A program made the translations under genes and the position numbers. DNA of 28,268 bases from a virus. Location: IMG/VR virus record IMGVR_UViG_3300006033_001292, positions 1-28,268 of that record. One strand, 5' to 3'. Shown here piece by piece: positions 1,290 to 26,698 of this stretch (position 1 is the stretch's first letter; each line of letters opens with the position of its first letter). A model generated the notes under the pieces. The model worked only from the letters and a program-made list of their open reading frames with translations, searched no databases and had not been told where the DNA came from.

Positions 1290-1295
1290 ATGACA
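1290..1295 (+). promoter_or_regulatory. ATGACA pre-start element of the GIY-YIG gene
   Basis: ATGACA lies 14 nt upstream of the GTG at 1310. It is a one-mismatch version of the TTGACA element seen before many rightward genes and supports this GTG as the start. No Shine-Dalgarno sequence is visible. Confidence 0.35.
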
Positions 1296-1309
1296 TCATA
1301 TGTATATGG

Positions 1310-1732
1310 GTGAAGATAAAAGGAACACACTGGGAAACATTGGATGGTGAAGACACGGTATTCAATCCATGCGGATTTGGTTTTATATATTGCATCATCA
1401 ATCTTGTTGAAGAGAAACGATACATTGGCCGCAAACAGATGTGGAACCGTGTTAAACGCAAACCACTTAAGGGCAAAAAGAATCATCGTATCAGTTCCAA
1501 AGAATCAGATTGGAAAACATACTGTGGAAGTTCCAAGGATTTGCTTGCTGATATTGAACGACTTGGTAAGAGCAACTTTCGATTCGTGATAATTGAAATG
1601 TGTAACAGTAAATGGGCATTACAATATTACGAAATGGAATGGATTCTTTTTGCAAACGCATTATTCAGGGATGATTTCTATAACAAAGAATTAAGAGTGC
1701 GAGTTGGCAAAGCTCCAAAGATGGAACATTGA
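1310..1732 (+). CDS. GIY-YIG family endonuclease (putative homing type)
   Basis: 140-aa protein with the GIY-YIG nuclease signature: FIY at 25-27, YIG at 38-40 with the catalytic Arg R41, and a Glu in YYEMEW at 108-110 that is the likely metal-binding residue. The middle segment (SDWKTYCGSSKDL at 67-79, then GKSNFRF) matches the compact GIY-YIG proteins of T4-like phages, which are free-standing endonucleases. No extra DNA-binding module is fused. The start is GTG 1310, because the ATGs just upstream are out of frame, and ATGACA sits 14 nt before it. The stop (1730-1732) lies just ahead of the endolysin. It sits between integrase and endolysin, a typical insertion spot for a selfish nuclease. 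An ordinary phage DNA-processing role is the alternative. Confidence 0.8.
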   Translation: MKIKGTHWETLDGEDTVFNPCGFGFIYCIINLVEEKRYIGRKQMWNRVKRKPLKGKKNHRISSKESDWKTYCGSSKDLLADIERLGKSNFRFVIIEMCNSKWALQYYEMEWILFANALFRDDFYNKELRVRVGKAPKMEH

Positions 1733-1735
1733 CTT

Positions 1736-1741
1736 TTGACA
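1736..1741 (+). promoter_or_regulatory. TTGACA pre-start element of the endolysin
   Basis: Exact TTGACA 14 nt upstream of the ATG at 1756. It lies just after the stop codon of the GIY-YIG gene and helps choose ATG 1756 over the upstream TTG 1729. Confidence 0.4.
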
Positions 1742-1755
1742 TTCCCATCAGGGGA

Positions 1756-2428: not shown

Positions 2429-2614
2429 TCATTCCGTAAACTGTTTCAATACGTTCTCAGTGTATTTCTTTTGTCTCTTCAATTGTTCCTCCCGTTTCTG
2501 TTTCACAATGTCCGATACAACACGGTTGATTACAGTACTGAACATCAGTTGTTCCACTTCCATTTTCTTTTGAAACCGTTTTTGACGGTTCCTTTCTTTA
2601 CGATTCAGTTTCAT
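2429..2614 (-). CDS. Small basic hypothetical protein
   Basis: Last gene of the leftward block, 61 aa from the ATG at 2614 (start residues MKLNRKERNR). A longer 78-aa reading from 2665 would overlap the upstream gene by 68 nt, whereas the chosen start overlaps by only 17 nt. The protein is rich in Lys, Arg, Gln and Glu, with KRQKK-type stretches, and is predicted to be mostly helical, perhaps coiled coil. I do not recognise a family. The high charge would suit nucleic-acid binding, but nothing specific shows it. A leftward terminator follows within 20 nt of the stop. Confidence 0.55.
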   Translation of the reverse strand: MKLNRKERNRQKRFQKKMEVEQLMFSTVINRVVSDIVKQKREEQLKRQKKYTENVLKQFTE

Positions 2615-2981
2615 TTTCTTCTTTCCAATCGTTAAACTCACTAATTGCAAATTCCGCATCTTCAATTAGTCGATCACATTGATATGACACATGTTCAACA
2701 ACGTCGTTCCACAGTTCCATACAACATTTCTTGAATTCCTTTAATGGTGGTTTCTTGTTTCCAACAAACAGTGAATTTATCTTTTTGTGATTATATAAAT
2801 CATCCAAACCATTTACATAATCATCCTTAGATGGAAGGTTTGCAAATTCATACAATCCATCTGAACCGCCAATTTGTCTTGTTTCCAATTCCATCAAATC
2901 ACATAGAACTTCTATGGTTCCAGCGTCAATACTTGTGTAATTATGATTTGTAATTAAGTTACGTTTGAATTCGTATTTCAT
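2598..2981 (-). CDS. Hypothetical acidic protein
   Basis: 127 aa, unrecognised. It starts MKYEFKRNLI, has a middle part with many Asp/Asn/Tyr residues (SKDDYVNGLDDLYNHKK), and an acidic helical C-terminus. A Cys pair (KKCCMEL, about 86-87) and one later Cys are present without a zinc-site pattern. Upstream on its strand are two purine stretches containing AAGGA, the second about 8 nt before ATG 2981, acceptable as a weak Shine-Dalgarno. Its stop overlaps the start of the small basic gene, so the two are probably co-translated. Cytoplasmic; function unknown. Confidence 0.6.
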   Translation of the reverse strand: MKYEFKRNLITNHNYTSIDAGTIEVLCDLMELETRQIGGSDGLYEFANLPSKDDYVNGLDDLYNHKKINSLFVGNKKPPLKEFKKCCMELWNDVVEHVSYQCDRLIEDAEFAISEFNDWKEENETES

Positions 2982-3332
2982 CTTTCCTTTATCCTTTTAT
3001 TTACCATGAGAAACCACACCCAACACAGGTGTAAATCCCTCCTGAATTATAAGAATATTATACAATAAAGTTATAATAAACCGAGCTTAAAAACTACACT
3101 ATGGGTAGTGACCCATTATAAAAAGTTGTCACTACGTATGGTGTACGGAATGGGCAATATTTTTCTTCTTTACAAATTATAACCTAGTGATTGTAAAACA
3201 CGTTTAAATCGGTTTTAAGACGTTGGAATTACGTTTGGGGTGTTGACCCTAAACAATCCACAGAATCGTTCCTGAATGAACCCAGAAGGGTTCCTGAACG
3301 TTTTACGTATCAACCCCATCAAGGGGGATAAC
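2982..3332. promoter_or_regulatory. Non-coding regulatory stretch with nested inverted repeats
   Basis: About 350 nt without a convincing gene. It holds (a) nested inverted repeats at 3101-3135: ATGGGT/ACCCAT around AGTG, and GTAGTGAC at 3105-3112 matched by GTCACTAC at 3128-3135; (b) a hairpin at 3267-3300 with inner arms GAACCC/GGGTTC and outer arms CGTTC/GAACG followed by TTTT; (c) AT-rich TATAAT-like words on the leftward strand at about 3047-3082; and (d) an AGGAGG on the leftward strand at about 3040, the best Shine-Dalgarno in the window but without a good gene behind it. This looks like the control region for the two genes below 2981. Binding proteins are unknown. Confidence 0.45.
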
Positions 3333-3476
3333 TTACCAAACGGAATACAAACAAATAAAGGTGAACCACATTAACAGTTCCATGAACAAATCAATGTATC
3401 GGTTTCCGTATTTCACAACAACAGTTCTGAACAATACCACCAACAAAAGTAACAAACCTAAAACAATAGTAATCAT
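3333..3476 (-). CDS. 47-aa two-helix membrane miniprotein
   Basis: A short gene missed by length cut-offs. It reads MITIVLGLLLLLVV at the start, then a short loop with Arg/Lys (RTVVVKYGNRY), then a second hydrophobic stretch to the C-terminus (FMELLMWFTFICLYSVW). Two membrane segments at about 2-17 and 29-47 fill the whole protein. Such proteins in phages are often holin-like, superinfection-exclusion or toxin-like, but the family is not recognisable. Codon choice (TTG, GTT, GGA) fits the neighbours. It sits alone between the zincin-like gene and the non-coding stretch, with a promoter-like pair immediately upstream. The ATG is only 7 nt after the TATAAT, so the mRNA could be almost leaderless. 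Confidence 0.55.
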   Translation of the reverse strand: MITIVLGLLLLLVVLFRTVVVKYGNRYIDLFMELLMWFTFICLYSVW

Positions 3477-3483
3477 CTTAAGT

Positions 3484-3511
3484 ATTATATTAACAGAAAG
3501 CTAGGCAATAA
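3484..3511 (-). promoter_or_regulatory. Candidate sigma70-type promoter for the membrane miniprotein
   Basis: On the minus strand TTATTG (3506-3511) is followed after 16 nt by a perfect TATAAT (3484-3489). The start codon lies 7 nt further on. The -35 is weak, so this is a tentative call. Confidence 0.35.
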
Positions 3512-3539
3512 CGAGAACAAAGCCCGATGCTGTACAGGA

Positions 3540-4004
3540 TCAATAGCATACATTTGCATTTCCAAAGCTGAATGTTGGTGGTTTCCGTAAATCTTTTATT
3601 TGTTCAAACAATAAACGTTCCCATTGTTCATGGATTCCTGATGTTCTGAATTCAAAACGTAAAGCATCCAGTTCTGATTTACTCGTTGTGAAATATCTCT
3701 TTATGGATTGTTCGTATGTTTCCCCTGTGATTGTTAACGTGGTGTGATCGTATGGAAACCCCGTGTGGAACTGAACGTGGTGTTGCCATTCATGTGCGAT
3801 TGTTTGCCGTGTTTGTTGTTCATCGTGTTTCCACTGATTGCTGATGACTATCAAACCTGATGACATATCCCACACCTTGTTATCTTCATCAACGTATTCA
3901 TTCCACTGGGGTTCATGGTATTCCCCGGCTCTATCCGTGAAGGTATTAAAAACAATGGGAACGTTTGGAACCCATCGTGGCGAATGTTTACGAAGGTGGT
4001 TCAT
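3540..4004 (-). CDS. Zincin-like metalloprotease-type protein
   Basis: 154 aa with an HExxH zinc-metallopeptidase signature: HEWQH at 71-75 preceded by a helix-like TRQTIA, so two zinc ligands (H71, H75) and a catalytic Glu (E72). A third ligand could come from the downstream helix ELDALRFE (111-118), the place where zincins carry Glu or Asp. No signal peptide is visible, so it should act in the cytoplasm. Phage proteins of this type include ImmA-like repressor-cleaving proteases and SprT-like proteins, but neither is specifically recognised. It overlaps the preceding gene through an ATGA stop-start junction. Position in the leftward early-type block suggests a regulatory or host-interaction role, which is inference. 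Confidence 0.6.
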   Translation of the reverse strand: MNHLRKHSPRWVPNVPIVFNTFTDRAGEYHEPQWNEYVDEDNKVWDMSSGLIVISNQWKHDEQQTRQTIAHEWQHHVQFHTGFPYDHTTLTITGETYEQSIKRYFTTSKSELDALRFEFRTSGIHEQWERLLFEQIKDLRKPPTFSFGNANVCY

Positions 4005-4348
4005 TTATTTAGATACTTAAGAAACCTTTCATATGATGGTTTCGGATCATTCAAAATGAATTCACAACACTTAATGTATTGTTGGGGTGTAATGAATTCA
4101 TTCTGGATAAAATCATCCAACGACGTTTCAACTTTAGTTTGTTTCTTGTTCTGTTTCTTCAAACAATATTCATCACGTAGTTCAAGTAATCGTTGATAGG
4201 TTCCATCAGGATATTTGATTTTTACTATTTTGAATAACCATCCTGTTTTGTGTTCAACACCCAACAATTTAATTTGTTCTGAACACCACACTTTAGCTTT
4301 AGTGGAAACCGATGCTTCAAACATCATTTGTTGTGTGATCGTTTCCAT
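4001..4348 (-). CDS. Hypothetical protein in the leftward chain
   Basis: 115 aa from the ATG at 4348 (METITQQMMF). That ATG begins one nucleotide after the TAA of the gene upstream, which is more economical than the 139-aa reading from 4420 that would overlap by 70 nt. No family recognised. The middle has a compact mixed segment (GWLFKIVKIKYPDGTYQRLLELRDEY is split by charged residues typical of a small alpha/beta fold), then a Lys/Gln-rich linker and a helical C-terminus. It is translationally coupled to the zincin-like gene by ATGA. Confidence 0.6.
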   Translation of the reverse strand: METITQQMMFEASVSTKAKVWCSEQIKLLGVEHKTGWLFKIVKIKYPDGTYQRLLELRDEYCLKKQNKKQTKVETSLDDFIQNEFITPQQYIKCCEFILNDPKPSYERFLKYLNK

Positions 4349-4349
4349 A

Positions 4350-4610
4350 TTAAATATCATTCCAAGAAATTTGTTTTGCATCCTTTGGATTAGCTTCAAC
4401 CATTTCATATCCCCGTTCATCCATCAAAATTTGATACGTACAAATATATAACGGTTGTGCTTTGTTGATGTAAGCGGTTTTCATAATGAACATCAATTGG
4501 CGATCATCTAAGTTTTCTAAATCATCGTGGATAATCTCCATCAAATCGTCCATATATTCCTTCATCATTCCATCTATCATTTCTCTGTTCTCTTCAGTTG
4601 CTGTTTTCAT
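4350..4610 (-). CDS. Small acidic hypothetical protein
   Basis: 86 aa, strongly acidic in its first half (several DD and EE pairs and Met-rich helices: GMMKEYMDDLMEI) and mixed in the second. Charge and size resemble small phage proteins that inhibit host enzymes by mimicking nucleic acid, but no family is recognised. AAGGA lies about 9 nt upstream of the ATG on its strand. It follows the polymerase-like gene by 12 nt and leads directly into the next gene (TAA, one base, ATG), so it is part of the same leftward operon. Confidence 0.6.
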   Translation of the reverse strand: MKTATEENREMIDGMMKEYMDDLMEIIHDDLENLDDRQLMFIMKTAYINKAQPLYICTYQILMDERGYEMVEANPKDAKQISWNDI

Positions 4611-4622
4611 TTTCTGTTTCCT

Positions 4623-5699
4623 TTATTTCTTTGTTACTGTTGGTTTGTGTCCGATACGTTCATTAACCGCATCAATGATCAAGTGAATGACCGTCTCTTC
4701 ATATTGTTCGGGGACGCTACAACCATCGTGTTCAGTGATGATAGGGATTGAACGTAACATGCACTTCTTTGCAACTGTGCTAATCATGATGTCCGCTTCC
4801 ATGTTCTGTAGTGTTAATGCCAAGTCTTTTTGTTTCAGTAAGAACTGATAGAGAGAGGGGAAATTCTTTTTGACGTAGTCTTCAACAGGATTGTTGTGGT
4901 TGAAATCTCCACCCGATAAAAACTTGCACCACTGAATTTTGATTTCTTCTCTGTCACCATCAATCAACTGGTAAATGTCACCCTTAAGGGCGTTGATATA
5001 CTCGGACATTTCAACGGGGTTGTTTATCTCGTTGTAAAATGAAAGACAAAGGAACGGATGGGCATTCTTGATGTCCAATGTAACGAGGGGTTCCCCGTTC
5101 AATGAAAAGATTTTCCTTCCCTCTTTCGGACAGGACAAATACGAATGGTATATGCGGTTACTGTTTTCCCCTTTCTTGAAATCAATTTCCTTTGCGAGAA
5201 ACTTCTGGGCTGATGTAACCACTCTTGCTTTTCTTGATGGTGTTTTTGTTTCAAGTTCCAACGGGGAAGTTTCAACCGTTACTTGATTCAAGGAATCGTA
5301 AATGTGTTGTTGAACGGGGTTCTGTATCACCACATTACCCGAATGTTGAACGGCCCGTTGTTGTTGATAGAAGTTCTCCACAACCTTCCCGTATCTCCAA
5401 TCTTTGCCGAGACGGTATGACTTGCTATTGCTTCCAACTTCGTATGAACCGTTTATTTCAATCAATCCCCTTGATTCCATATCAACCAAGATTTCTTTGT
5501 AAGCCTCTCGTAAATAGTTCCGTAAAATATCCGTGTGAATATTCACGAACAAATCAGGGGTTCTGTTGTTCTGTTCGTTCCTCTTGATGATTTCCGATAT
5601 GACAAAACTTTCTTTCTTGTTTAATTCCATTCCCTCTATTTTCAGGTCGGGTTTTGTCTTCACTAACTTATTGATTGAAACGTGGTATGTGTTGCTCAT
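4623..5699 (-). CDS. Winged-helix plus polymerase-palm-like protein (putative replication protein)
   Basis: 358 aa, first gene of the leftward operon. The N-terminal part (about 25-105) reads as a winged helix: a helical YKEILVDMESRGLIEI segment followed by a strand-turn SYEVGSNSKSYRLG. The C-terminal part has motifs that line up with PolA/T7-RNA-polymerase palms: LVTLDIKNAHP at 205-215 (motif A, D209), REEIK at 250-254 (motif B R-x3-K), an NMEADIM helix at 299-305 (like the QGTAADI element) and ITEHDGCSVP at 321-330 (motif C, HDG with D325). I recall similar uncharacterised phage and plasmid proteins ending in IHDS. There is no exonuclease or full fingers/thumb. It is the only replication-like gene seen. 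The start is ATG 5699; a TTG 15 nt upstream is possible. Role in replication or transcription is inference. Confidence 0.6.
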   Translation of the reverse strand: MSNTYHVSINKLVKTKPDLKIEGMELNKKESFVISEIIKRNEQNNRTPDLFVNIHTDILRNYLREAYKEILVDMESRGLIEINGSYEVGSNSKSYRLGKDWRYGKVVENFYQQQRAVQHSGNVVIQNPVQQHIYDSLNQVTVETSPLELETKTPSRKARVVTSAQKFLAKEIDFKKGENSNRIYHSYLSCPKEGRKIFSLNGEPLVTLDIKNAHPFLCLSFYNEINNPVEMSEYINALKGDIYQLIDGDREEIKIQWCKFLSGGDFNHNNPVEDYVKKNFPSLYQFLLKQKDLALTLQNMEADIMISTVAKKCMLRSIPIITEHDGCSVPEQYEETVIHLIIDAVNERIGHKPTVTKK

Positions 5700-6016
5700 A
5701 TGAATACATATCAACGAGCAAACCCAAAAAGACGTTATAAAAAGCGATTGTTTGTAACTGGTTGATAGTGAATTGAATTCAGTTCCAGTTATAATATATG
5801 TTTACATTGTAAAGAATCGCCGTTTTTCATAGGGGAAACCAAGTCGAAAACCAAACTGGGTGAGACATATTACTGCTCCACTGTGTCTTCTCTGTCTCTC
5901 TGTGTCTTTTTCTGGGACTAAGAAGGCAGAACCGCTTTCCTTTTCTTGGACACGCAAACCGATTATTATAAGAAAATATATATACGGTTTGGGAAAGCTG
6001 AACCCTATTTATAGAT
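5700..6016. promoter_or_regulatory. Divergent early control region
   Basis: 317 nt between the leftward operon and the first rightward gene. Visible elements are TAACTGG/CCAGTTA inverted arms at 5755-5761 and 5785-5791; a TATAAT word at 5790-5795 touching the right arm; a 13-nt palindrome TTTACA-T-TGTAAA at 5801-5813; a pyrimidine-rich tract at about 5885-5915; and inverted AAACCG/CGGTTT words flanking an AT-rich segment at about 5956-5990, which is the likely rightward -10 area. The arrangement is what a lysis-lysogeny or early switch needs, with operators between two opposing promoters, but no repressor gene is recognised and the promoters are not consensus. Confidence 0.5.
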
Positions 6017-6755: not shown

Positions 6756-6795
6756 CCCCTTATCAGTCGTAACAGATTGGTAAGGGGTTTTCTTT
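6756..6795 (+). terminator. Intrinsic terminator after the first rightward gene
   Basis: CCCCTTA at 6756-6762 pairs with TAAGGGG at 6781-6787 around a long loop that may add CA/TG pairs, followed by TTTTCTTTT. It separates the 6017 gene from the lipoprotein-hydrolase pair. Confidence 0.8.
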
Positions 6796-6800
6796 TGACA
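6795..6800 (+). promoter_or_regulatory. TTGACA pre-start element of the lipoprotein gene
   Basis: Exact TTGACA directly behind the terminator T-tract and 14 nt upstream of ATG 6815. Confidence 0.4.
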
Positions 6801-9373: not shown

Positions 9374-9687
9374 TGAAAACCGACAAACAACCCTTGGACT
9401 TCAAAAAGATTAAAAATCTCCTGATGTTCCATGATACAGAAAAACGTTTCTTATCAAAATGTAAGGGAATCAAACCCCTTAAGAAAATAAGTGTATTGGA
9501 CTTGGATTCAGAAACATTCGCAACAGTGGAAACAGAATATCCATTCACCATCGTTCAGAACGAATCAGGGAATGAATACGTTATCAGTGATGAAGGAACC
9601 CACTACATGTTCCACCTTGTAACTAAAAACGAATCAGGTGGAAGAATTTTAACCCTTAACAGAACGAAGGTAATAAAAAGATCATGA
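9373..9687 (+). CDS. Hypothetical protein
   Basis: 104 aa, starting in a TAATG junction at 9373 with GGGAG shortly upstream. The GTG at 9364 in the same frame is less likely. A Lys-rich first third is followed by alternating strand-like segments, and the C-terminus resembles that of the preceding gene (GGRILTL against GGRIHTG), so the two may be distant relatives. It overlaps the next gene by ATGA. Confidence 0.6.
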   Translation: MKTDKQPLDFKKIKNLLMFHDTEKRFLSKCKGIKPLKKISVLDLDSETFATVETEYPFTIVQNESGNEYVISDEGTHYMFHLVTKNESGGRILTLNRTKVIKRS

Positions 9688-10220
9688 CAATCACAGGAAT
9701 TAAATCAGACAGACAGGAACCCGATTCAATACGGCCCATCTTTACGCAGAATGAAAACGGGGGATACGACATTGATTTACCCTGTGGCTTTGACTGGGAA
9801 ACACTTCTACATCAAACCGACACCCTTAAAGGAATGTTGCTGGATGCAGAGGAACCGCAATTGATCATCAACGAATTGATACGGGTGGATAGTGAACGGC
9901 GAACGGCCCAAGTGTTAACGGTTATCATCAGTCGGATATTGTTTAGTAAAAATCCCCGTCTTGAAGTGGATGCGTTGGTAGCAGCACTTAACTTGCCCTT
10001 CAGGGGGAACGTATCACACGCAGAAATAGCCAAGTCATATGCAATCACCCGTGAAGCATTTTCAGAACGTGTTTCAGACATCGTGAAAGAACTGGGACTA
10101 AGACACCCCAGAATGTGCAAATCTACTGATACATCATCAACTTATCGTGATGGAAATAAAAGAAATAGAAAGATTGAAGAGGAACCAAAGATCAAAAAGA
10201 AAAAAGGAAAAACAAAATGA
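9684..10220 (+). CDS. Helix-turn-helix DNA-binding protein
   Basis: 178 aa starting in an ATGA junction. The C-terminal half has a clear HTH: VSHAEIAKSYAITREAFSERV at about 110-130, followed by a second helix (VSDIVKELGL) and a Lys-rich tail. The pattern is of the sigma-region-4 or GntR/Xre-type HTH in which a helix reads an operator; the N-terminal part is unknown. Likely a transcription regulator of the phage, since no other repressor or antirepressor is recognised. A role in packaging-type terminase regulation cannot be excluded. Starts and ends are ATGA-coupled. Confidence 0.65.
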   Translation: MTITGIKSDRQEPDSIRPIFTQNENGGYDIDLPCGFDWETLLHQTDTLKGMLLDAEEPQLIINELIRVDSERRTAQVLTVIISRILFSKNPRLEVDALVAALNLPFRGNVSHAEIAKSYAITREAFSERVSDIVKELGLRHPRMCKSTDTSSTYRDGNKRNRKIEEEPKIKKKKGKTK

Positions 10221-10559: not shown

Positions 10560-11171
10560 ATGAATCAGTTAAATATCAGCAGCAATAGCAAGGTAACAAT
10601 ATCAGAAATCGGGTTGGTAGTTCACAAAGAACTAACCGACAAAGAGCACAAACAACTATGGGAATCGTTGCTAAGTGCTGAAAAGGGAATCCGTTGGTGT
10701 CTGGGTGACTACCTGAACCATTGTGAAGATGTGGGAAGGGGATACGATTCGTTAATGGAATCTACAGGTTATTGCCGTGGTTCCCTTAAAGAAAGTAAAT
10801 CCCTGGCAAAGAGATTCCCCATTGAACAGCGTAATAAAAATCTTACGTATTCATTCCACAAGGAAGCATTGGCTGAATGTAAGGGGGATACTCAAGTAGC
10901 AATTGGTTGCTTGGATTATGCCGAGAAGAACAACCTTACCATTTCAGAAATGAGAAAAAACATCAGAACCTTACACAGTGCATCCAACAACAACCCAACA
11001 CCAAAGCCAGAACATGAATCGGACAAGGTGGATAAAGTATTCTGTGAAGTAGTACGGAATCTTCAATCAGTCACAACACAATTAGGAAAGGTGAAGCTCT
11101 CACGTAAACAATATGAAACGATAATTCTTATGACAGACGGGATACAAGACCAGTGTGAGGAATCGTTATGA
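10560..11171 (+). CDS. ParB/KorB-like DNA-binding-type protein
   Basis: 203 aa with AAGGA about 9 nt upstream of the ATG. The central pattern (WCLGDYLNHCEDVGRGYDSLMESTGY...SLKESKSLAKRFP, then LTYSFHKEALAE and AEKNNLTISEMRKNIR) recalls proteins in which a helix-turn-helix reads DNA and whose sequence runs W-LGD...R-Y...LS-HH-E-A...ELR, seen in phages and actinobacterial plasmids. The C-terminal 60 residues are a polar linker and a helix. Function in partition, replication or regulation is possible. The family link is by pattern memory and of moderate confidence. It is ATGA-coupled to the endonuclease gene behind it. Confidence 0.5.
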   Translation: MNQLNISSNSKVTISEIGLVVHKELTDKEHKQLWESLLSAEKGIRWCLGDYLNHCEDVGRGYDSLMESTGYCRGSLKESKSLAKRFPIEQRNKNLTYSFHKEALAECKGDTQVAIGCLDYAEKNNLTISEMRKNIRTLHSASNNNPTPKPEHESDKVDKVFCEVVRNLQSVTTQLGKVKLSRKQYETIILMTDGIQDQCEESL

Positions 11172-12253: not shown

Positions 12254-12449
12254 GCAAAATTATGATAAGAAATCTCTTCAGAAAACCCGCTTCCCTCGGG
12301 TTACGGACACCGTGAACATTTGCGTAAGTGTCTGTTGCCCAACCAGCACTAAATAGTGACTATAAGGGTAAAGGGACTGAATCAACCCCCTGAACCAACA
12401 TTGAAACCATGACACCAAACACACACTTAACAGGTTATCGCCAATCATT
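12254..12449 (+). other. Structured gap before terminase, candidate cos/packaging region
   Basis: 196 nt with several hairpins: AACCCG/CGGGTT at 12284-12302, GGACAC/GTGTCT at 12305-12333 (one G-U pair), and CACTA-AA-TAGTG at 12347-12358. In lambda the cos site lies just before the terminase genes, and the terminase here is of that type, so this gap is the natural place. TTAACA at 12427-12432 lies 17 nt before the small terminase start. No cos-end sequence can be recognised by eye. Confidence 0.4.
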
Positions 12450-14902: not shown

Positions 14903-14908
14903 TTGACA
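14903..14908 (+). promoter_or_regulatory. TTGACA pre-start element of the gpW-like gene
   Basis: TTGACA overlaps the first base of ATG 14908 and lies 14 nt upstream of the in-frame ATG 14923. The spacing seen elsewhere points to 14923. Confidence 0.35.
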
Positions 14909-16833: not shown

Positions 16834-17672
16834 TGAAACACAAAAAAGATTTAAGTCGGATAGTCGCAATCGTGAATGATGAAACCAAGTGGTTAATCCT
16901 TCCCGCGAAGTATCAAGCCATACGTGGATTACTTGATGCACATTTAAAAGGAACGATGGATATAGCAGACATGATGCCTGATGAATCCACAGAACCAGAA
17001 CAGGAAATAAAGTATTACGACATCATAGGGAACACGGCAATTATCAACGTGGAAGGAACCATTCTGCCAAAAGCTGGAATGCTTGAAATGATGTGTGGTG
17101 CGTTCTCCTTAGAATTGTTTCAGAAGAACTTAAAAGAGTTGGCAACTAACGACTTGGTAAAAAATATCATCATTGATTTTGATACTCCCGGTGGAGTGGT
17201 TACACAAGTCCCCGAGACTGCCGACCTGATTGCAGAAGTGGCAAAGACAAAGAACGTTATTGCCTATAGTAACGGAATGATTGCAAGTGCCGGTTATTAC
17301 CTTGCTTCCCAGTGTTCAAGAATCTTCATCAGTAAATCCGCAGAAGTGGGTTCAATTGGTGTGCGTGTCGCATACGTGGATAGTTCCAAACACTACGAAC
17401 AGGAAGGTTACAAAGTGGAAGTGTTCGACAGTGGCGAATTCAAATCAATGGGTATTGCTGGAAAGAGTCTCACAGACAATCAACGGAAGTTGATTCAAGA
17501 CGGCGTTGATAAATGCTTCGCAGAATTCAAATCCTACGTACTGGCAAAAAGAACTGTTGGGGATGAATCAATGCAAGGCCAGATGTTTGATTCAGACGAA
17601 GCTTTAACCGCAGGTTTGATAGATGGAGTCATCAACGACTTGGAATCATTGGTGGCGTACCTGAATAGTTGA
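16833..17672 (+). CDS. S49-family head maturation protease (gpC-like)
   Basis: 279 aa, SppA/gpC-like serine protease that would remove the scaffold during capsid maturation. The catalytic Ser-Lys pair is visible: S152 in GMIASAGYYLAS and K204 in DSGEFKSMG, with the strands IIIDFDTPGG (112-121) and KSAEVGSIGVRV around them. The N-terminal 60 residues are an unconserved leader. In lambda the scaffold Nu3 is translated from within C; here the scaffold-like gene is separate and follows. Start shares a base with the portal stop (TAATG). Confidence 0.9.
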   Translation: MKHKKDLSRIVAIVNDETKWLILPAKYQAIRGLLDAHLKGTMDIADMMPDESTEPEQEIKYYDIIGNTAIINVEGTILPKAGMLEMMCGAFSLELFQKNLKELATNDLVKNIIIDFDTPGGVVTQVPETADLIAEVAKTKNVIAYSNGMIASAGYYLASQCSRIFISKSAEVGSIGVRVAYVDSSKHYEQEGYKVEVFDSGEFKSMGIAGKSLTDNQRKLIQDGVDKCFAEFKSYVLAKRTVGDESMQGQMFDSDEALTAGLIDGVINDLESLVAYLNS

Positions 17673-17674
17673 CA
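17669..17674 (+). promoter_or_regulatory. TTGACA pre-start element of the scaffold gene
   Basis: Exact TTGACA overlapping the protease stop codon and lying 18 nt upstream of ATG 17693, the widest spacing in the series. Confidence 0.3.
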
Positions 17675-19045: not shown

Positions 19046-19078
19046 TAAACGACAAACAAACAACTGCTTATAAAATTA

Positions 19079-19109
19079 GGGCGTGTCCTTTAGGACACGC
19101 TCTTTTTTT
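19079..19109 (+). terminator. Strong terminator after major capsid gene
   Basis: Perfect 8-bp stem GCGTGTCC (19081-19088) and GGACACGC (19093-19100), loop TTTA, then TC and seven T (19103-19109). Confidence 0.92.
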
Positions 19110-19116: not shown

Positions 19117-19122
19117 TTGACA
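19117..19122 (+). promoter_or_regulatory. TTGACA pre-start element of the connector gene
   Basis: Exact TTGACA 8 nt behind the terminator T-tract and 16 nt upstream of ATG 19139. Confidence 0.4.
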
Positions 19123-20672: not shown

Positions 20673-20678
20673 TTGACA
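20673..20678 (+). promoter_or_regulatory. TTGACA element before the tail-tube gene
   Basis: Exact TTGACA, but 41 nt upstream of ATG 20720. A 20-nt hairpin (20685-20704) lies between. Folding it would bring the motif to about 21 nt. Confidence 0.3.
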
Positions 20679-20684
20679 ACACCA

Positions 20685-20704
20685 TTACTGCCAACAAGCA
20701 GTAA
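20685..20704 (+). promoter_or_regulatory. Leader hairpin before the tail-tube gene
   Basis: TTACTGC (20685-20691) pairs with GCAGTAA (20698-20704) around a 6-nt loop. It ends at the Shine-Dalgarno-like AAAGGA of the tail-tube gene and is not followed by a T-tract. It could be a 5' mRNA-stability hairpin. Confidence 0.5.
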
Positions 20705-20719
20705 AGGAAAAATCAATTT

Positions 20720-21058: not shown

Positions 21059-21072
21059 TTCATAACTCCACT

Positions 21073-21103
21073 AAAGGGACTGCTTAACCGCAGTCCCTTT
21101 TTT
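21073..21103 (+). terminator. Strong terminator after tail-tube gene
   Basis: 11-bp stem AAAGGGACTGC (21073-21083) and GCAGTCCCTTT (21090-21100), loop TTAACC, then more T. Confidence 0.92.
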
Positions 21104-21109
21104 GTGCGT

Positions 21110-21115
21110 ATGACA
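21110..21115 (+). promoter_or_regulatory. ATGACA pre-start element of the assembly-protein gene
   Basis: ATGACA, one mismatch from TTGACA, 7 nt after the terminator and 14 nt upstream of ATG 21130. Confidence 0.35.
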
Positions 21116-21129
21116 CGGTTAGTAAATTC

Positions 21130-21771
21130 ATGGAAGAACTACAGAACAGTTACATTGATTCGTTTATACATTTTGATTACCAGATTTTAGGGAAGCGAAT
21201 GCAACCGCTGACGTTGAAACGTTACTTGCGGTTACATGTAATCAGTTCACCACTCATATACAACCCGACACAGGCGAAACTTGAAGACTTGGAAAACGCA
21301 ATCCGTATTTGTTCAACCACTCGGGATGAACCAATTCATGAACTGAACCTTAAGAAATATTCTTGGTTCCAACGATTACAGGGGAACTGGTGGGTTTATA
21401 AAAACAGACAGAGGAAAGATATACCCGAACAAGTGAAACTGTTTGCCGAGTATCTGAATGACTATTGTTCAGGCCCGAAAGTGTTTGATGTTAAGTCCCA
21501 GTTAACACCAGAAGAGAAAATGAAAATGGAACTGGGGGAAGTGGAGAAGTCGGGGCCAGTGGGTTCCCTTCCGTGGTCCCTTAGTCGTATGGGATACCTG
21601 ATGTTTGAAGGTGGCATGGCTAAAGACGAAGTGGAGAACCTTACGATAGGGGAAATGCTTTGGTTATCGGAAACCCTGGCATACGTCAAAACAGGTAAAT
21701 GCAACGTGGTTAGTTCCGCTGATGAAAGGGTATTGGCAGAGATTCAGATGGAATTGGATTTGACAGTCTGA
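21130..21771 (+). CDS. Tail assembly chaperone-like protein
   Basis: 213 aa between tail-tube and tape-measure genes, where lambda G/GT chaperones lie. It is helical and Leu/Trp-rich (RLQGNWWVYKNRQRKDI). No slippery frameshift signal or overlapping second frame is seen, so the two-protein G/GT scheme is not evident. Function from position only. Confidence 0.5.
   Translation: MEELQNSYIDSFIHFDYQILGKRMQPLTLKRYLRLHVISSPLIYNPTQAKLEDLENAIRICSTTRDEPIHELNLKKYSWFQRLQGNWWVYKNRQRKDIPEQVKLFAEYLNDYCSGPKVFDVKSQLTPEEKMKMELGEVEKSGPVGSLPWSLSRMGYLMFEGGMAKDEVENLTIGEMLWLSETLAYVKTGKCNVVSSADERVLAEIQMELDLTV
21760..21765 (+). promoter_or_regulatory. TTGACA pre-start element of the tape-measure gene
   Basis: Exact TTGACA inside the last codons of the preceding gene, 15 nt upstream of ATG 21781. 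Confidence 0.35.
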
Positions 21772-21780
21772 TGGTTGTTA

Positions 21781-23373
21781 ATGAGTAACGACATCAAAGC
21801 GAAAGTAACGGCAGACATATCTGAATTTAATACGGGCATGGCAAAGGTGCAGAATGTTGCATCTTCCGTTACAGAACATTTCAAGAAACAGTTTGGCAGT
21901 TTGCAATCAAGCATCACGAATGCTTTTGCAGTGGGTGCAGTTGTTGCGTTCGTTCGCACAACCATATCAGAGTTTGCCCGTATCGGGGATATTGCCGACC
22001 AGTTCGACACCACGGGGGAATCAATTCAAAGGTTGAAGTATGCTGCCGAACAAAGTGGAACGACAGTTGAAGTACTCGCATCGGCCCTTGCTAAAGGAAA
22101 CAAAGCTGCCCAAGAAGCGAAAGAGGGAAGTGATACAGCATCCAAAGCATTCAGTGATTTAGGTATATCCGCAGAGGAATACATCAAGTTATCGCCCGAG
22201 GAACAAACCGTTGCCTTAGCAAAGGCATTTACTGGTGCAGAAGATAAGGGGAAAGCTTTCAATGCCTTGTTAACAATCCTTGGAAAGAGTGCGAAAGAAT
22301 TATTACCGTTGCTCCGTAGTGGTGGAGAAGGTGTTAAAGGAATGTTTGCAAGTGCTCCAATCCTTGATGAAAAAACATTAGATCAATTAAAGAAGGCAGA
22401 CGATTTCATGAATCGAATGCTGACAACTGCCAAGGTGTTGGGCGGATACCTTGTAACCGCTTTCGTTCCATTCGCTGAAGCTATCACAATTCCAATACAG
22501 GGATTCATATTGTCCCTGTTGATGGTTAAAGATTTGTTGAATGGTGATGTGTTGGGAGCAACAAAACGATGGGGTGCGTTCCTTGAAAACATCCGGGGAA
22601 CAGGTTCTAAATTCGCAGCACTATTTTCTTCCGTTAAATCATTGGTGACTGGCGAACCAAACAGTTCAACGGCTGACAGTAAGCCAGTCAGTGATCCAAC
22701 CGCAGACGGAACAGCGGAAACGCCCAAGACAAAACAAGAATTAACTGATGCTCAGAAACTCGCAGACTTGAAATCAAAGAATGATGATGCCGTTAGAAAA
22801 GCACAACGGGAACAAATGGCTCTTGATACACAACGGGCAATCAAACTTGGTGAGATAGAAGAAGCACGAAGACAAGGAACAGTTGCACAAACAGAACTGG
22901 AACGAGAACAGGCGAGAGAAAAAGCAATCCAACTTGTGAAGGAATTGAAAGCGATTGATGAAAAGATTGCCAAGGAAAAAGAAGCAGAAAAGAAAGCCAG
23001 TGAAGACAAGTTGAACGAACAGAACAAGGCCGACAAAAAGCAATACGATGAATTTAAAAAGTTCCAAGATGCCAAAAAGAAAAAGGACTTGGAAACACAG
23101 AAAAAGAAAATTGAAGACGAAGTGAAGAGTGCTGAAAAGAATTTGGATTTAGCCAAAGCACTTCCATTCAATCCAGCCGTTGATTCCCTTAGACAATCAG
23201 GGGGTGGAGTCGCCGGAGTGGACTACAGCAACAACATCAAGAGTTCACAGGTGACTAAAGAAGAAGCTGCAAAGAAGGAATTGGAAAAGAGTAACGACAA
23301 ACTCCAGAAGATTATCGACAAGTTAGAAGCAATAACACAAGTCGGTTCAGATGGAAGTGGAACACTTGATTAA
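21781..23373 (+). CDS. Tail tape-measure protein
   Basis: 530 aa from ATG 21781 (an in-frame TTG at 21775 is ignored). The protein has the expected make-up: helical N-terminus, hydrophobic segments (ITNAFAVGAVVAFVRTTI at about 45-62 and VLGGYLVTAFVPFAEAITIP at about 220-240, plus IQGFILSLLMV), and a long Lys/Glu/Ala coiled coil at about 320-460. It sets tail length, and at about 0.15 nm per residue the tail would be near 80 nm, short for a siphovirus. Antisense ORFs opposite the coiled coil are artefacts. Confidence 0.85.
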   Translation: MSNDIKAKVTADISEFNTGMAKVQNVASSVTEHFKKQFGSLQSSITNAFAVGAVVAFVRTTISEFARIGDIADQFDTTGESIQRLKYAAEQSGTTVEVLASALAKGNKAAQEAKEGSDTASKAFSDLGISAEEYIKLSPEEQTVALAKAFTGAEDKGKAFNALLTILGKSAKELLPLLRSGGEGVKGMFASAPILDEKTLDQLKKADDFMNRMLTTAKVLGGYLVTAFVPFAEAITIPIQGFILSLLMVKDLLNGDVLGATKRWGAFLENIRGTGSKFAALFSSVKSLVTGEPNSSTADSKPVSDPTADGTAETPKTKQELTDAQKLADLKSKNDDAVRKAQREQMALDTQRAIKLGEIEEARRQGTVAQTELEREQAREKAIQLVKELKAIDEKIAKEKEAEKKASEDKLNEQNKADKKQYDEFKKFQDAKKKKDLETQKKKIEDEVKSAEKNLDLAKALPFNPAVDSLRQSGGGVAGVDYSNNIKSSQVTKEEAAKKELEKSNDKLQKIIDKLEAITQVGSDGSGTLD

Positions 23374-23382
23374 GGAATTTAT

Positions 23383-24090
23383 ATGCCATTGATTACATAC
23401 GGAAACGCAACGGGTTCAATACGAACAAAACGGAATTGGAATAAAACCGCAGATGGTGTCAGCACTTACACTGTAACACTTGAAGGGGATTTCAATGTGT
23501 TGGAATCCACGGTTGCTTCCATGTCATACGGAAGTGTTCCTGTAGATACGTTCATCAGTAGTAGCGTTTACGGTTTGGCAACTGCCCAATTGGAAACGTT
23601 AACCGCAGGTAACGGCCGAGCCGTTATCAACTACAACACATCAACGATTAACACACCAACGATGCCACCTAATTCGTTCGTGGAACAATCGGCAATCATT
23701 CAAGAACCAATCATGAGACACCCTGACTTCTCTTACTGGGATAGTTTGGGGCAAGTCTGGTGGGAAAGAAAATCGGATGGAACCCACTACAATTCAGCAA
23801 GGGAAAATCCAACAGACATATTTGTTGATTTCACGGATGCAAGTGGAAAAGCCAACATCAAAAACTGGGACGTTCCAACCACACAAATTATTACAACCAC
23901 TTACTACTCAAGTCGCCCATCAAGTCCCGCTGATGAAGTAGGCACATTGTCTGTTCCATCAGTGGCAAGTGGAACTGATAAATGGAAAATTGATGCTGCT
24001 ATCCGACAGAAACAGGGGAACTGGTGGACAATCGTTCGGACTTACACTTATTCCGCAATCGGTTGGAACACTGATGTGTATTATACATGA
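23383..24090 (+). CDS. Tail protein of unknown function
   Basis: 235 aa after the tape measure, with AAGGA before the ATG. Beta-rich with aromatic surfaces (SYWDSLGQVWWERKSDGTHY) and a Ser/Pro linker (SSRPSSPADEVG) between two halves. The N-terminus resembles that of the 20720 tail protein. The position fits distal tail (Dit) or tail-tip function. Not recognised. It overlaps the next gene by ATGA. Confidence 0.55.
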   Translation: MPLITYGNATGSIRTKRNWNKTADGVSTYTVTLEGDFNVLESTVASMSYGSVPVDTFISSSVYGLATAQLETLTAGNGRAVINYNTSTINTPTMPPNSFVEQSAIIQEPIMRHPDFSYWDSLGQVWWERKSDGTHYNSARENPTDIFVDFTDASGKANIKNWDVPTTQIITTTYYSSRPSSPADEVGTLSVPSVASGTDKWKIDAAIRQKQGNWWTIVRTYTYSAIGWNTDVYYT

Positions 24091-24659
24091 ACAACTTTGT
24101 AGCACTAAAAGAAAATGGAAGGGTGGTAACACCAGCGAAACACAATCAACTGGTTGACCTTGTACAACGTATTGCTTTAAGCCCATCTTCTGACTATCGA
24201 ATCAAACAGATAGGTTCAGGGACAACACTGGAAATCATACACCCTGTTGTTAAACCAACACCTGCCGAACCATATCCATTCAAGATAATTCCCATCAAGG
24301 GAACCGATACATTCAATGTTTCAATGGGCGTGGTGAATAGCCAGTTGCCATCCAATATCAATTCAACGTTTACAGCAAGTGACGGGGATGCTGTATGGGT
24401 TCAGGCAAATTTAAGTTGGACCAGTGGTTATCCCACTATCACTTCCCTGTTCATTGATAACGGTTCGTCTCTTCCATCAGGTGCGAATGAAGGTATTGAA
24501 CCAACAGTGGTAGCACAGTTGCTCGGTTATGTTTACGTGACGGATGATGTAATCGTTGCCACGTATAACGCAATTCAGAACAGTTTAAATTTCTACAGGC
24601 ACGTTACATCAGTTGACTGTAATAGGAGTTACTACGCTATTGCGTGGAATGCTGTATGA
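24087..24659 (+). CDS. Tail-tip or baseplate-region protein, unknown
   Basis: 190 aa, ATGA-coupled at both ends. It starts MNNFVALKENGRVVTPAKHN, a segment rather typical of virion proteins with an N-terminal attachment helix, followed by beta-rich repeats (TFNVSMGVVNSQLP, AVWVQANLSW) suggestive of a jelly-roll or carbohydrate-facing domain. No family named. Confidence 0.5.
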   Translation: MNNFVALKENGRVVTPAKHNQLVDLVQRIALSPSSDYRIKQIGSGTTLEIIHPVVKPTPAEPYPFKIIPIKGTDTFNVSMGVVNSQLPSNINSTFTASDGDAVWVQANLSWTSGYPTITSLFIDNGSSLPSGANEGIEPTVVAQLLGYVYVTDDVIVATYNAIQNSLNFYRHVTSVDCNRSYYAIAWNAV

Positions 24660-26311
24660 GCTGCACAGGTTCAGATCGTAGACCGCCTTGTAATGATTGT
24701 TGTTCGTTTGGTGCTACAACTATCGGGGGTAAGGTTACATCTTATCAATCATGGTGGACTGTTGCTAATTCCCCAGTTGCTGGAGCACCAACACATTTAA
24801 CCCTGATTGAAACGGACAACATAACGCCGAGCGACAGTAGAACAACGGCAATAAATCACAGTGATGATTCCATTTCTTTTTCGTGTGTGGGGGAATTCCT
24901 TACTTGGAATAGTGGAAACCGTACAAACACTTCAAGCAGTCTTTACACTAAGACCCTGTTGATAACTGATGCCTACAATAAACTGTCTGCACTCAGTCCT
25001 AGTACTGGTTCCACTTCATCAGGGGGAAGTTCAGTTGGAACAACAGTGGAAGACGTAAGAGAACCTGGACATACGGGCGTTTCCCCTGCCGATTCAATTT
25101 ACGTTACATCAGATTCATGTGGGGATGATAGTTCGGGAACTTCTATTGAATGGGGAACCTATGGACACGCAAACGCACAGAAGGGAAAATACAAATGGAA
25201 AATAACCCATCCTGAATGGTGTTCGGGTGATGGTTCCTTACTTGTTAAGTGGCGAGAGCAAACAATCGTTGGTACGGCATCTGCAACATACGTTGATAAA
25301 GAAGAAGAAATCACACCAACGGTTAACACAACTTCAAGTCTGGGAACTTACTTCTATGAAATCTCTTCCCCTTCAACTGATACGGGAAGTGTTACGGTTG
25401 TCGGCCCACAGTGTTCAGCAAGTGCTTATATTCAATTGGAACGTGTTGGAAACCACATGACTAAACAGGGGTGGCACGGATACACCAGCACGGCAAGTAT
25501 TCAGTCGGTATATCGAAAACAAGAAATGGTTGGATACATACCCGAGTGTGTAACGGAAAGTTATTATGCTACGGACTTTAACGGATGGAAGCACTACCAA
25601 GCGGATACTGATTATCTTGGGCAACAACAATACTACCTGACAGCAACGGGCAGTTTTGAAAATGATGAATTTGTAATCCCTGAATGGTGGAACAATGAGT
25701 GGACAGAACCACCCGCATTGATCAATGGGCATTATGAATACCCAACACGGGGAACGTATGATGTTGGATACTACAATTTCCCTTGGCGTCTCAGTGGTTC
25801 CCAGACGAACACACTTAAAACGGTGGTTGTGGATATACCAAACATCTGCGGTTCTGATGTAGTCGTAACCACAGAACTTAGTGATGAATTCACAACGGCT
25901 GAATTAGTTGATGCCGTTGATGCCGTTCTATTATTTCCGTTCGGCTCGGGTAGTTCCTACACGGAATTCTTTGATGCAGGAACATACTTAGACCCAACAG
26001 AACATTATTACGTCAGTCAGAAATGCAGATGGAAAGTTGTCGGGGAATTGCCAAACCCTTCCCCAACAGACCAGACGCTAAATTTCTACGCAATCATAAC
26101 GAGTACCAACCCTGATACGGGAATGTTTGTCGCAACTTCCAGTATTGAAGTGCCGATATATTTTGCCAAGGGGAAGACATCAGCATCCAGTTCATGGGAT
26201 ACCATCAATGCTCCAGCGTATAATATGTTTTACCGTGTGAGAGTTGATGATACCCGTTACCCAACAAACCTTCACATGTGTACGGGTGGGCCAACCATCA
26301 CCATTGTCTGA
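24656..26311 (+). CDS. Large tail-tip/baseplate protein with Cys-rich N-terminus
   Basis: 551 aa from ATG 24656, which overlaps the preceding stop (ATGA). The ATG at 24644 in frame would overlap more. Starts with a dense Cys group (C3, C11, C14, C15 in MSCTGSDRRPPCNDCC), possibly a disulphide or metal knot, followed by long Ser/Thr/Trp/Tyr-rich beta sequence without membrane segments. Large tail-tip proteins in this position make the host contact. No enzyme motif is recognised. Confidence 0.55.
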   Translation: MSCTGSDRRPPCNDCCSFGATTIGGKVTSYQSWWTVANSPVAGAPTHLTLIETDNITPSDSRTTAINHSDDSISFSCVGEFLTWNSGNRTNTSSSLYTKTLLITDAYNKLSALSPSTGSTSSGGSSVGTTVEDVREPGHTGVSPADSIYVTSDSCGDDSSGTSIEWGTYGHANAQKGKYKWKITHPEWCSGDGSLLVKWREQTIVGTASATYVDKEEEITPTVNTTSSLGTYFYEISSPSTDTGSVTVVGPQCSASAYIQLERVGNHMTKQGWHGYTSTASIQSVYRKQEMVGYIPECVTESYYATDFNGWKHYQADTDYLGQQQYYLTATGSFENDEFVIPEWWNNEWTEPPALINGHYEYPTRGTYDVGYYNFPWRLSGSQTNTLKTVVVDIPNICGSDVVVTTELSDEFTTAELVDAVDAVLLFPFGSGSSYTEFFDAGTYLDPTEHYYVSQKCRWKVVGELPNPSPTDQTLNFYAIITSTNPDTGMFVATSSIEVPIYFAKGKTSASSSWDTINAPAYNMFYRVRVDDTRYPTNLHMCTGGPTITIV

Positions 26312-26314
26312 CAA

Positions 26315-26320
26315 TTGACA
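26315..26320 (+). promoter_or_regulatory. TTGACA pre-start element of the baseplate-like gene
   Basis: Exact TTGACA just after the preceding stop and 15 nt upstream of ATG 26336. Confidence 0.4.
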
Positions 26321-26335
26321 ATAGGAACAAAGAAT

Positions 26336-26698
26336 ATGAACGACTACACAGGCAACAACAAAATTGATATGTACAAAGGGGATGACCAGATTTTCTTACT
26401 TTCATTCAAAAATGATGATGGAACACCCTTGGATATTACCGATTACACAATTTATTTCACGGTTAAGAGAAAGAAAACGGATGCGGATTCTGATTCTCTG
26501 ATACAGAAGGTTATCACAAGTCACAGTAACGCAGTTCAGGGTTCCACAGGAATACAATTGGATCACGCTGATACAGTGGACATCAAGGCCGGGGATTACT
26601 TCTTTGATATTCAAGTGAAGGATTCAGGCGGAAAGATCACAACGTATGTTGCTGACACCTTCACACTGGCTCAAGACATCACACAGGGAATAGAATAA
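26336..26698 (+). CDS. BppU-N-terminus-like baseplate protein
   Basis: 120 aa from ATG 26336. The sequence YKGDDQIFLLSFKNDDGTPLDITDYTIYFTVKRK looks like the N-terminal domain of phage baseplate upper proteins (BppU), an Ig-like beta sandwich that docks fibres. A TTG at 26315 in frame would lie inside the pre-start element and is not used. It sits directly before the fibre gene (stop TAA, one base, ATG), fitting an adaptor for it. Confidence 0.6.
   Translation: MNDYTGNNKIDMYKGDDQIFLLSFKNDDGTPLDITDYTIYFTVKRKKTDADSDSLIQKVITSHSNAVQGSTGIQLDHADTVDIKAGDYFFDIQVKDSGGKITTYVADTFTLAQDITQGIE

Follow-up and report, generated by a model that had tools for sequence, protein, structure and literature searches.

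The stretch of DNA analysed here (the window) is the IMG/VR virus record IMGVR_UViG_3300006033_001292, 28,268 bases long, which carries integrase, terminase, portal, protease, capsid and tape-measure genes. In this phage the hexamer TTGACA is a real, conserved, phage-lineage-specific gene-start signal, placed in the sense orientation shortly before individual genes and found again in distantly related phages and in prophages of Verrucomicrobiota. The signal probably acts as DNA, and judging from sequence comparisons there is an even chance that it represents a phage-specific late promoter that gives rise to near-leaderless mRNA.

TTGACA in the window

An initial annotation of this DNA had noticed TTGACA eight times, on the plus strand only, at distances of 14, 14, 14, 18, 16, 41, 15 and 15 nucleotides (nt) from an ATG. 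An exact count confirmed the number, coordinates and strand of the copies, and the distances are correct when counted from the last base of the hexamer, the 14-nt figure for the copy at 6795 referring to the second ATG (6815), with the first (6809) only 8 nt away. Dinucleotide shuffles of the window led to an expectation of 36.7 copies (standard deviation 5.9) on both strands, compared to the eight found. The copies are the following, with motif positions counted from the first T as 0:

1736..1741, plus strand: TTGACA, 14 nt before ATG 1756 of a weakly lysozyme-like gene; GG at +16/+17
6795..6800, plus strand: TTGACA, 14 nt before ATG 6815 of a gene whose product has, by eye, a lipoprotein-like signal peptide; GG at +16/+17
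14903..14908, plus strand: TTGACA, 14 nt before ATG 14923 of a small gene after the large terminase subunit gene (TerL)
17669..17674, plus strand: TTGACA, which overlaps the protease stop, 18 nt before ATG 17693 of a gene that, from its position, is presumably the scaffold gene; no G at +16/+17
19117..19122, plus strand: TTGACA, beginning 13 nt past the post-capsid hairpin, 16 nt before ATG 19139; G at +17
20673..20678, plus strand: TTGACA, 41 nt before ATG 20720, with a purine-rich AAAGGA in the leader; G at +17
21760..21765, plus strand: TTGACA, within the end of the preceding gene, 15 nt before ATG 21781 of the tape-measure gene; G at +17
26315..26320, plus strand: TTGACA, 15 nt before ATG 26336 of a tail-fibre-assembly-like gene; G at +17

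Near copies with one mismatch, two at 14 nt and one at 17 nt from a start, also stand where they had been described, and two hairpins accompany the signal:

1290..1295, plus strand: ATGACA, 14 nt before GTG 1310 of a GIY-YIG endonuclease gene; weaker evidence
12427..12432, plus strand: TTAACA, 17 nt before ATG 12450 of the gene for the small terminase subunit (TerS, a weak match); weaker evidence
21110..21115, plus strand: ATGACA, 10 nt behind a terminator-like hairpin, 14 nt before ATG 21130
19078..19103, plus strand: terminator-like hairpin with T run, after the major capsid gene and before TTGACA 19117
21074..21099, plus strand: terminator-like hairpin with T run, before ATGACA 21110

Seven of the eight exact copies lie 14-18 nt ahead of a start and six have G at +17. 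When all hexamers were counted in the zone 11-20 nt upstream of the 34 plus-strand starts, which takes up 1.17% of positions, TTGACA ranked first among those with at least three zone copies (7/8 copies in the zone, log10 p -12.6), and the hexamers ranked second to fourth (TTTGAC, TGACAT and TGACAC) overlap it. A count against a codon-shuffle null, which could have revealed many copies inside genes or on the minus strand, found one sense copy within the genes of the window where 10.8 were expected and no antisense copy where 7.2 were expected; taken together with its complement (1 vs 18.2), TTGACA ranks second in avoidance among 1,927 word pairs.

Among the nine uncoupled starts of the late region (gap of at least 9 nt), five have the exact hexamer at 14-18 nt, one (20720) has the copy at 41 nt, two have a one-mismatch copy and one (23383) has none, while the exact hexamer precedes none of the nine coupled starts (gap of at most 3 nt), one of which (19453) has the one-mismatch word TTGAAA. 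The claim that ATGA-coupled genes lack TTGACA holds in the window but fails in relatives, as the protease start 12802 of G063 overlaps the portal stop as ATGA and yet has TTGACA 14 nt upstream. That copies lie directly behind terminators is borne out by the two T-run hairpins listed, which end 13 and 10 nt, respectively, ahead of TTGACA 19117 and ATGACA 21110; under lax criteria a terminator-like hairpin ahead of 6795 is added. A promoter scan of 12000-28268 agreed with the annotation in pairing no -10 box at 16-18 nt with any of the six copies there, the copies at 1736 and 6795 being judged by eye.

Conservation in related phages and prophages

Conservation of the word in related phages, a check that the initial annotation had named, was found in a phage clade of about 60% G+C (GC) and in Verrucomicrobiota prophages. 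No near relative of the window was detected by blastn in phages or by a first scan of genome contigs, and the sole close match in TerL and capsid scans of viral contigs, IMGVR_UViG_3300027851_000591, is 100% identical across the 20.3 kb compared. A scan by terminase alignment yielded 80 viral loci, from which the GC-60% loci were picked out after a tally of TTGACA. Their terminases are 28-30% identical to that of the window and many of their late genes have TTGACA 13-18 nt ahead, with 75 of the 81 sense copies obeying the start rule. Over 12 records including the window, 82/89 sense copies stand 11-19 nt ahead of an open reading frame (ORF) that has at least 40 codons or is cut by the end of the record, and the pattern TTGACAN13-17ATG occurs in eight clade records 55 times in sense and once on the other strand, with no hit for a reversed-pattern control.

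A related terminase was present in 47 of 387 Verrucomicrobiota genomes. From 20 prophage loci of 3-5 kb, 11 prophages, chosen as showing or likely showing the signal, were extended (G138, G194, G337, G225, G079, G168, two in G238, G317, G173 and G088); all of them bear it, and 90/151 sense copies in these prophages obey the rule vs 14% of random positions. Thirteen further TerL regions were then taken as a check, of which seven are at least 17 kb long. Among these seven the signal is present in G244 (8/13 sense copies obeying, no antisense copy) and lacking in the other six, where the sense copies obeying the rule are 0/2 in G346, 0/4 in G241, 0/1 in G220, 0/5 in G026, 0/2 in G227 and 1/11 in G051. 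The corresponding counts in the shorter check regions are 1/3 (G124), 2/4 (G129), 0/0 (G363), 0/1 (G028), 0/2 (G276) and 0/2 (G048). De novo hexamer scans placed TTGACA first in four sets, namely the window (7/8), the prophages (56/116), the GC-60% clade (31/56) and G244 (7/14); in five signal-less regions it was outside the top six hexamers and the best word reached a log10 p of -4.1.

The signal also marks starts within genes. In G063 three starts (12802, 13396 and 13519), each preceded by a TTGACA of its own, are in the same frame and lead to a common stop (L129; the same coordinates in L048), and similar in-frame nested pairs with TTGACA are found in the protease-scaffold genes of G337 (21956/22775) and G225 (22509/23331). 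Such nested starts would make a scaffold protein, by analogy with C/Nu3 of phage lambda. In the TerS leaders of the GC-60% clade (L038 30-65 and others) TTGACA is located within the loop of an inverted repeat.

Shape and spacing of the motif

For a motif profile, 172 sites were grouped into 88 clusters by similarity of gap or N-terminus and weighted. The profile evidenced a two-part motif, [GT]TTGACA-N10-GG, with G or T before the hexamer, a C-rich stretch after it and G at +16 (58%) and +17 (67%). TTGACA stands 11-19 nt, mostly 13-17 nt, ahead of the start, so that the fixed distance to the start codon proposed at the outset is only roughly constant; the constant spacing that does exist is that from TTGACA to the GG ten bases on. 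In gap classes 13 to 17, G at +17 has frequencies of.73,.67,.80,.52 and.91 (.41 in class 18, with a weighted n of 3.7), and this steadiness indicates that the GG is anchored to TTGACA and not to the start codon. Where the gap reaches 15 nt or more (36 clusters), G is found at +17 in 67% and three bases before the start in 36%. The mean G count at +16 and +17 is 1.31 compared to 0.63 (standard deviation 0.066) in shuffled gaps (87 clusters), and G at +17 is seen in 43% of other sense copies (n=42), 45% of antisense copies (n=11) and 34% of copies in the bacterial genome G045 (n=200). The whole motif ends mostly 1-6 nt ahead of the start codon.

A hairpin in the gap between TTGACA and ATG was considered and rejected: a mild excess over shuffled gaps (z 3.2) is explained by composition, C-rich and then G-rich, and swaps of the 3' halves gave p values of 0.06-0.44 in five runs.

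Host genomes and other viruses

The signal is not used host-wide. In 59 Verrucomicrobiota genomes TTGACAN13-17ATG at first seemed enriched against the reversed pattern, and a control spacing removed the excess (4,480 hits vs 4,877 for TTGACAN33-37ATG); likewise, TTGACA spacing is flat in 400 kb of G045. The lack of use in host genomes, together with its absence from six of the seven further long regions, indicates that the signal belongs to a phage lineage. A scan of genomes with the terminase returned seven matches, the best of which, in the Verrucomicrobia metagenome-assembled genome UBA1412 (L094), is 33% identical and lies in a locus without the signal (0/5 copies obeying, by eye). No TTGACA start pattern was found in Akkermansia phage Chantilly (L092), in whose genes sense TTGACA is scarce by codon shuffle (2 vs 7.0) and antisense is not (5 vs 6.3).

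The host of the window is most likely a member of Verrucomicrobiota, as suggested by shared genes, the search with the helix-turn-helix gene described below and with the motif having been confined to this phylum. In Akkermansia, which belongs to it, leaderless transcripts make up about 10% of starts according to the text available of PMC4782308, suggesting that the hosts can probably translate leaderless mRNA. Akkermansia muciniphila and the isolate IMCC26134 appear among the organisms listed as poor in Shine-Dalgarno pairing in an excerpt of PMC10783764.

Evidence for action as DNA

Two readings had been offered in the annotation, a ribosome-binding signal and a promoter with a very short leader for a non-sigma70 polymerase. 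There is strong support for TTGACA being an unconventional gene-start signal, and of the two readings the promoter is favoured by the avoidance seen for antisense copies. Signal-bearing phages have antisense TGTCAA 6 times in 338 late genes (76,845 codons) vs 30.4 expected by codon shuffle, a ratio of 0.20, and TGTCAA is the most avoided word of its one-mismatch set, the wobble (G-U) variants TGTCAG, TGTCGA and TGTTAA having ratios of.62,.84 and 1.09. The same ratio is 1.32 in genes of G045, 1.01 in other TerL-related viral loci and 0.79 in phage Chantilly; codon or composition bias was rejected as the cause, there being no such avoidance in G045 or the other viral loci. In raw counts the prophage regions have 151 sense and 22 antisense copies in 385 kb, and six signal-less regions 37 and 48 in 219 kb. 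As an mRNA signal on the untranscribed strand would be harmless, the avoidance of antisense copies suggests reading of the signal in DNA and so speaks for a promoter. An earlier codon shuffle on crudely called ORFs of the GC-60% clade (sense 33 vs 18.4, antisense 7 vs 12.9) was superseded by other ORF calls, its sense excess probably arising from gene starts that lay inside the called ORFs.

Further observations concern terminators and ribosome binding. Nine of 49 terminator-like hairpins have TTGACA within the next 60 nt vs 2.7% of random 60-nt stretches, and in the window as well as in G062, G063 and G064, three records of a single clade, TTGACA begins 7-14 nt past a hairpin after the capsid gene. 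No excess of Shine-Dalgarno words was found in the gaps (AGGA, GGAG or GAGG in 10/87 vs 12% shuffled), and other late starts do show them (18/157 vs 6% shuffled). Pairing of the hexamer with 16S rRNA was rejected: TGTCAA occurs in none of seven near-full-length Verrucomicrobiota 16S genes, all with the canonical CCTCC tail, a set which includes G317 and G088, genomes with signal-bearing prophages. The distant copies (41 nt from the start in the window; in G138 and both G238 prophages, 30 nt ahead of the helix-turn-helix gene) are followed by a purine-rich stretch in the leader, as would be the case in normal leaders. No match to RNA_pol PF00940 (T7-like) was obtained in 16 genomes or records, but none of 14 controls matched either, the virus records are fragments or of unknown completeness, and the search covered polymerases of the T7-like kind.

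A candidate reader protein

Two genes of the window have homologues in other signal-bearing regions:

9684..10217, plus strand: 178-residue helix-turn-helix protein, candidate recogniser of TTGACA
10560..11168, plus strand: 203-residue protein with no assigned function; homologues in nine further signal-bearing prophage regions

Homologues of the helix-turn-helix protein occur in 12 further signal-bearing phage regions, often beside homologues of the second protein, that of G088 being weak (1e-4), and the family is present in 13/16 of the signal-bearing regions searched (12 strong). Five of six signal-less regions are without a match; a stronger match in signal-less G227 is located on a contig other than that of the terminase, and a weak one in G026 lies beside another terminase copy. 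The window protein itself matches no family in Pfam or PHROGs at E 0.1. Across 12 family members, Sigma70_r4 was matched in five (best E 0.0039), MarR_2 in seven (best E 0.00069) and a PHROG sigma factor in two (best E 3.9e-5), with a KorA domain in PDB at E 0.008; the C-terminal helix-turn-helix thus bears a weak likeness to several classes (MarR, sigma region 4 and KorA). A structure model from three sequences has a mean predicted local distance difference test (pLDDT) score of 52, with blocks of 62-84 over residues 91-140; the model of the 10560-11168 protein was unusable (pLDDT 36). In sigma factors it is region 4 that reads TTGACA at -35, and a link of the helix-turn-helix protein to this domain is attractive but unproven. 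In G138 (L157 6640-6694) two TTGACA copies 19 nt apart and a GGAGG stand ahead of the helix-turn-helix gene, with parallels in both G238 prophages, as if the gene were self-regulated in these prophages.

Proposed mechanism and alternative explanations

The window belongs to a lineage of integrase-bearing phages, most likely of Verrucomicrobiota, in which [GT]TTGACA-N10-GG marks the beginnings of late genes. Based on this evidence, it can be proposed that a phage factor, for which the helix-turn-helix protein is the candidate, would recognise TTGACA and direct RNA polymerase, and that transcription would begin near the GG or at the start codon itself. The resulting mRNAs would be almost without leader and would need no Shine-Dalgarno sequence, and genes that lie behind terminators or are uncoupled from their neighbour would in this way receive a start of their own. 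We infer the transcriptional action, the start point and the identity of the factor, and the late promoter as a whole has even chances. A more specific version is unlikely, if conceivable from the sequences: a phage helix-turn-helix adaptor with a domain like sigma region 4 would read TTGACA about 16 bp, and not 35 bp, upstream of where the transcript begins and in the absence of a -10 box, uncoupled late genes, even nested in-frame scaffold starts, would be expressed from leaderless mRNAs of their own, and this would constitute an undescribed promoter type of a phage lineage of Verrucomicrobiota.

Several observations weigh against a promoter read by this protein. The signal stands before individual genes and even before in-frame nested protease-scaffold starts, as a translation signal would. 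A+T content is low in the ten bases that follow TTGACA (25-45% by position vs 42% in the upstream background), with no AT-rich stretch of the kind expected where a promoter melts, and no clear initiator preference was seen in the base preceding the start codon. TGTCAA ranks 71st of 4,073 hexamers by z, with 70 more strongly avoided, so that its avoidance alone is not unique, and the pooled phages show no avoidance of sense copies within genes (35 vs 42.4), in contrast to the window (1 vs 10.8). The gaps pair with the anti-Shine-Dalgarno slightly better than other late starts do (-2.60 vs -1.14 kcal/mol), with little difference from shuffles of the gaps themselves (-2.43). With respect to the protein, no helix-turn-helix homologue was found in G062 and G168, where the sequence is cut near TerL, or in the 35 kb of G244, while signal-less G051 has a TerL-adjacent match as weak as that of G088 (1e-4). 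Foldseek returned no significant hit for the model (E of at least 0.3), with TFIIB in first rank (0.32) and sigma-4 domains among the top folds at E above 0.5.

Some of these points would be accommodated by a non-Shine-Dalgarno signal in the mRNA, UUGACA about 15 nt before the start, that recruits ribosomes and is read by a phage or host ribosomal factor. This explanation, which we consider somewhat unlikely, agrees with the placement before individual uncoupled genes (five exact, one distant and two near copies at nine starts, no exact copy at nine coupled ones), with the marking of in-frame nested starts and with a location near ribosome binding sites where the excess of Shine-Dalgarno words is missing. 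Conversely, it does not account for the fivefold antisense avoidance in signal-bearing phages, which is seen neither in the host nor in the other viral controls; all seven 16S genes lack TGTCAA, the GG is anchored to TTGACA and not to the start codon, and a hairpin in the gap found no support in the half-swap test. A lysogeny repressor acting on many asymmetric TTGACA sites, comparable to stoperators, and blocking late transcription in the prophage is quite improbable from the arrangement of the sites. A roadblock of this kind needs neither a spacing of 13-18 nt to starts nor in-frame nested starts, and antisense copies should be neutral to it, yet they are avoided. In its favour are the asymmetric copies, mostly along late transcription (151 sense, 22 antisense), their frequent co-occurrence with the helix-turn-helix gene and the TTGACA 30 nt before the start of that gene itself in G138 (as a tandem pair) and in two G238 prophages. 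The stoperator site of the Cluster A mycobacteriophage L5 contains TGTCAA. Cluster A stoperators are likewise asymmetric and oriented with transcription, as stated in the accessible portion of PMC4351075.

Two simpler explanations carry far less weight. That these are ordinary sigma70 -35 boxes, with a -10 box and the real start codons further downstream, is very improbable even if TTGACA is the consensus -35 hexamer: sigma70-like pairs are rarer than in shuffles of 12000-28268 (15 vs 33.5) and none begins at the six copies there, the profile shows the start codon and no TATAAT-like block up to +23 (judged by eye beyond this), and a -10 box would fall within the first codons of genes, for instance in the signal peptide encoded from 6815. 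Chance or coding bias could be invoked because TTGACA was chosen by eye and the relatives were partly selected for showing it; its probability is practically negligible, having already been refuted by the first rank of the hexamer in four sets and by the strand bias of TTGACAN13-17ATG (55 sense vs 1 on the other strand and 0 reversed).

Other features of the window

The window includes genes for homing-type endonucleases, namely a GIY-YIG (SegE) gene at 1310-1732, a NUMOD3 gene with DUF559 at 11168-11908 and one with a sub-threshold match to HNH_4 at 7910-8557. The minus-strand genes at 2598-5714 have no assigned function, and the largest (4623-5714) matches only phrog_4756, of unknown function. 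For the tail-assembly-like protein encoded at 26336-26698, the only matches in the phage collection were four Prochlorococcus phage records at 28% identity. Other words are avoided on both strands of the window, including ATTGAG/CTCAAT (0 vs 18.7), TCGTCA/TGACGA (0 vs 16.8) and TTCGAA (0 vs 12.5), in which restriction avoidance is possibly reflected.

Significance and comparison with known systems

TTGACA constitutes an expression signal common to phages with as little as 20-30% identity between their terminases; its rules (word, spacing, orientation and avoidance) are clear, and there is a candidate reader protein. It raises a testable question, that is, whether these phages begin transcripts right at the start codon by means of a -35-like word that lacks a -10, which, if true, would be an unusual way of switching on late genes. 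As an aid to annotation, TTGACA-N10-GG points to start codons, including nested scaffold starts. Searches of one open-access library, judged by titles and the beginnings of abstracts, brought up no account of a comparable signal in phages of Verrucomicrobiota.

Among described phenomena, the Start-Associated Sequences (SAS) of Cluster K mycobacteriophages and Cluster EF Microbacterium phages come closest, and their function is given as unknown in the sections available of PMC3203893 and PMC7302621. These are lineage-specific asymmetric repeats, nearly all in one orientation and directly before the starts of some phage genes, and the TTGACA signal is of this start-associated kind, being an asymmetric repeat upstream of starts, mainly in one orientation, and not a host feature. 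It differs in that SAS, as described there, are 13 bp long (GGGATAGGAGCCC in Cluster K), are located at the ribosome-binding position and have an AGGAG core that can pair with 16S rRNA, whereas in TTGACA-N10-GG the hexamer lies mostly 13-18 nt from the start, and the motif has no rRNA complement that was found and shows evidence of acting as DNA; no 13-bp word with AGGAG at the ribosome-binding position was found in its profile. The stoperators of Cluster A resemble it as short asymmetric sites across temperate phage genomes that are oriented with transcription, but PMC4351075, in the portion cited above, contrasts them with SAS, which adjoin translation starts as the TTGACA sites do.

With respect to mechanism, a -10 motif adjoining ORFs gives leaderless mRNA in Deinococcus-Thermus, as outlined in PMC12340547. 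The likeness consists of a promoter element in the place of a ribosome-binding site and of leaderless mRNA, which would be shared by the TTGACA phages if their late mRNAs are as proposed. In the outline cited, the element of Deinococcus-Thermus is a bacterial motif, TANNNT, about 6-7 bp from the start, whereas TTGACA is mostly 13-18 nt away, with a C-rich stretch between, and is present in phages and not in host genomes at large; no TANNNT block was seen 6-7 bp before starts in its profile. The late promoters of jumbo phage AR9, AACA-N6-TA/G, are attributed to a phage RNA polymerase in the part of PMC5312081 consulted, and are similarly short, two-part phage promoters with fixed spacing and many copies, also within operons and genes, but with leaders of 26-491 nt and in a phage that encodes its own polymerases. 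By analogy, the mechanisms nearest to the one proposed for the TTGACA signal would be the ORF-adjacent leaderless promoters of Deinococcus-Thermus and short two-part phage promoters like those of AR9.

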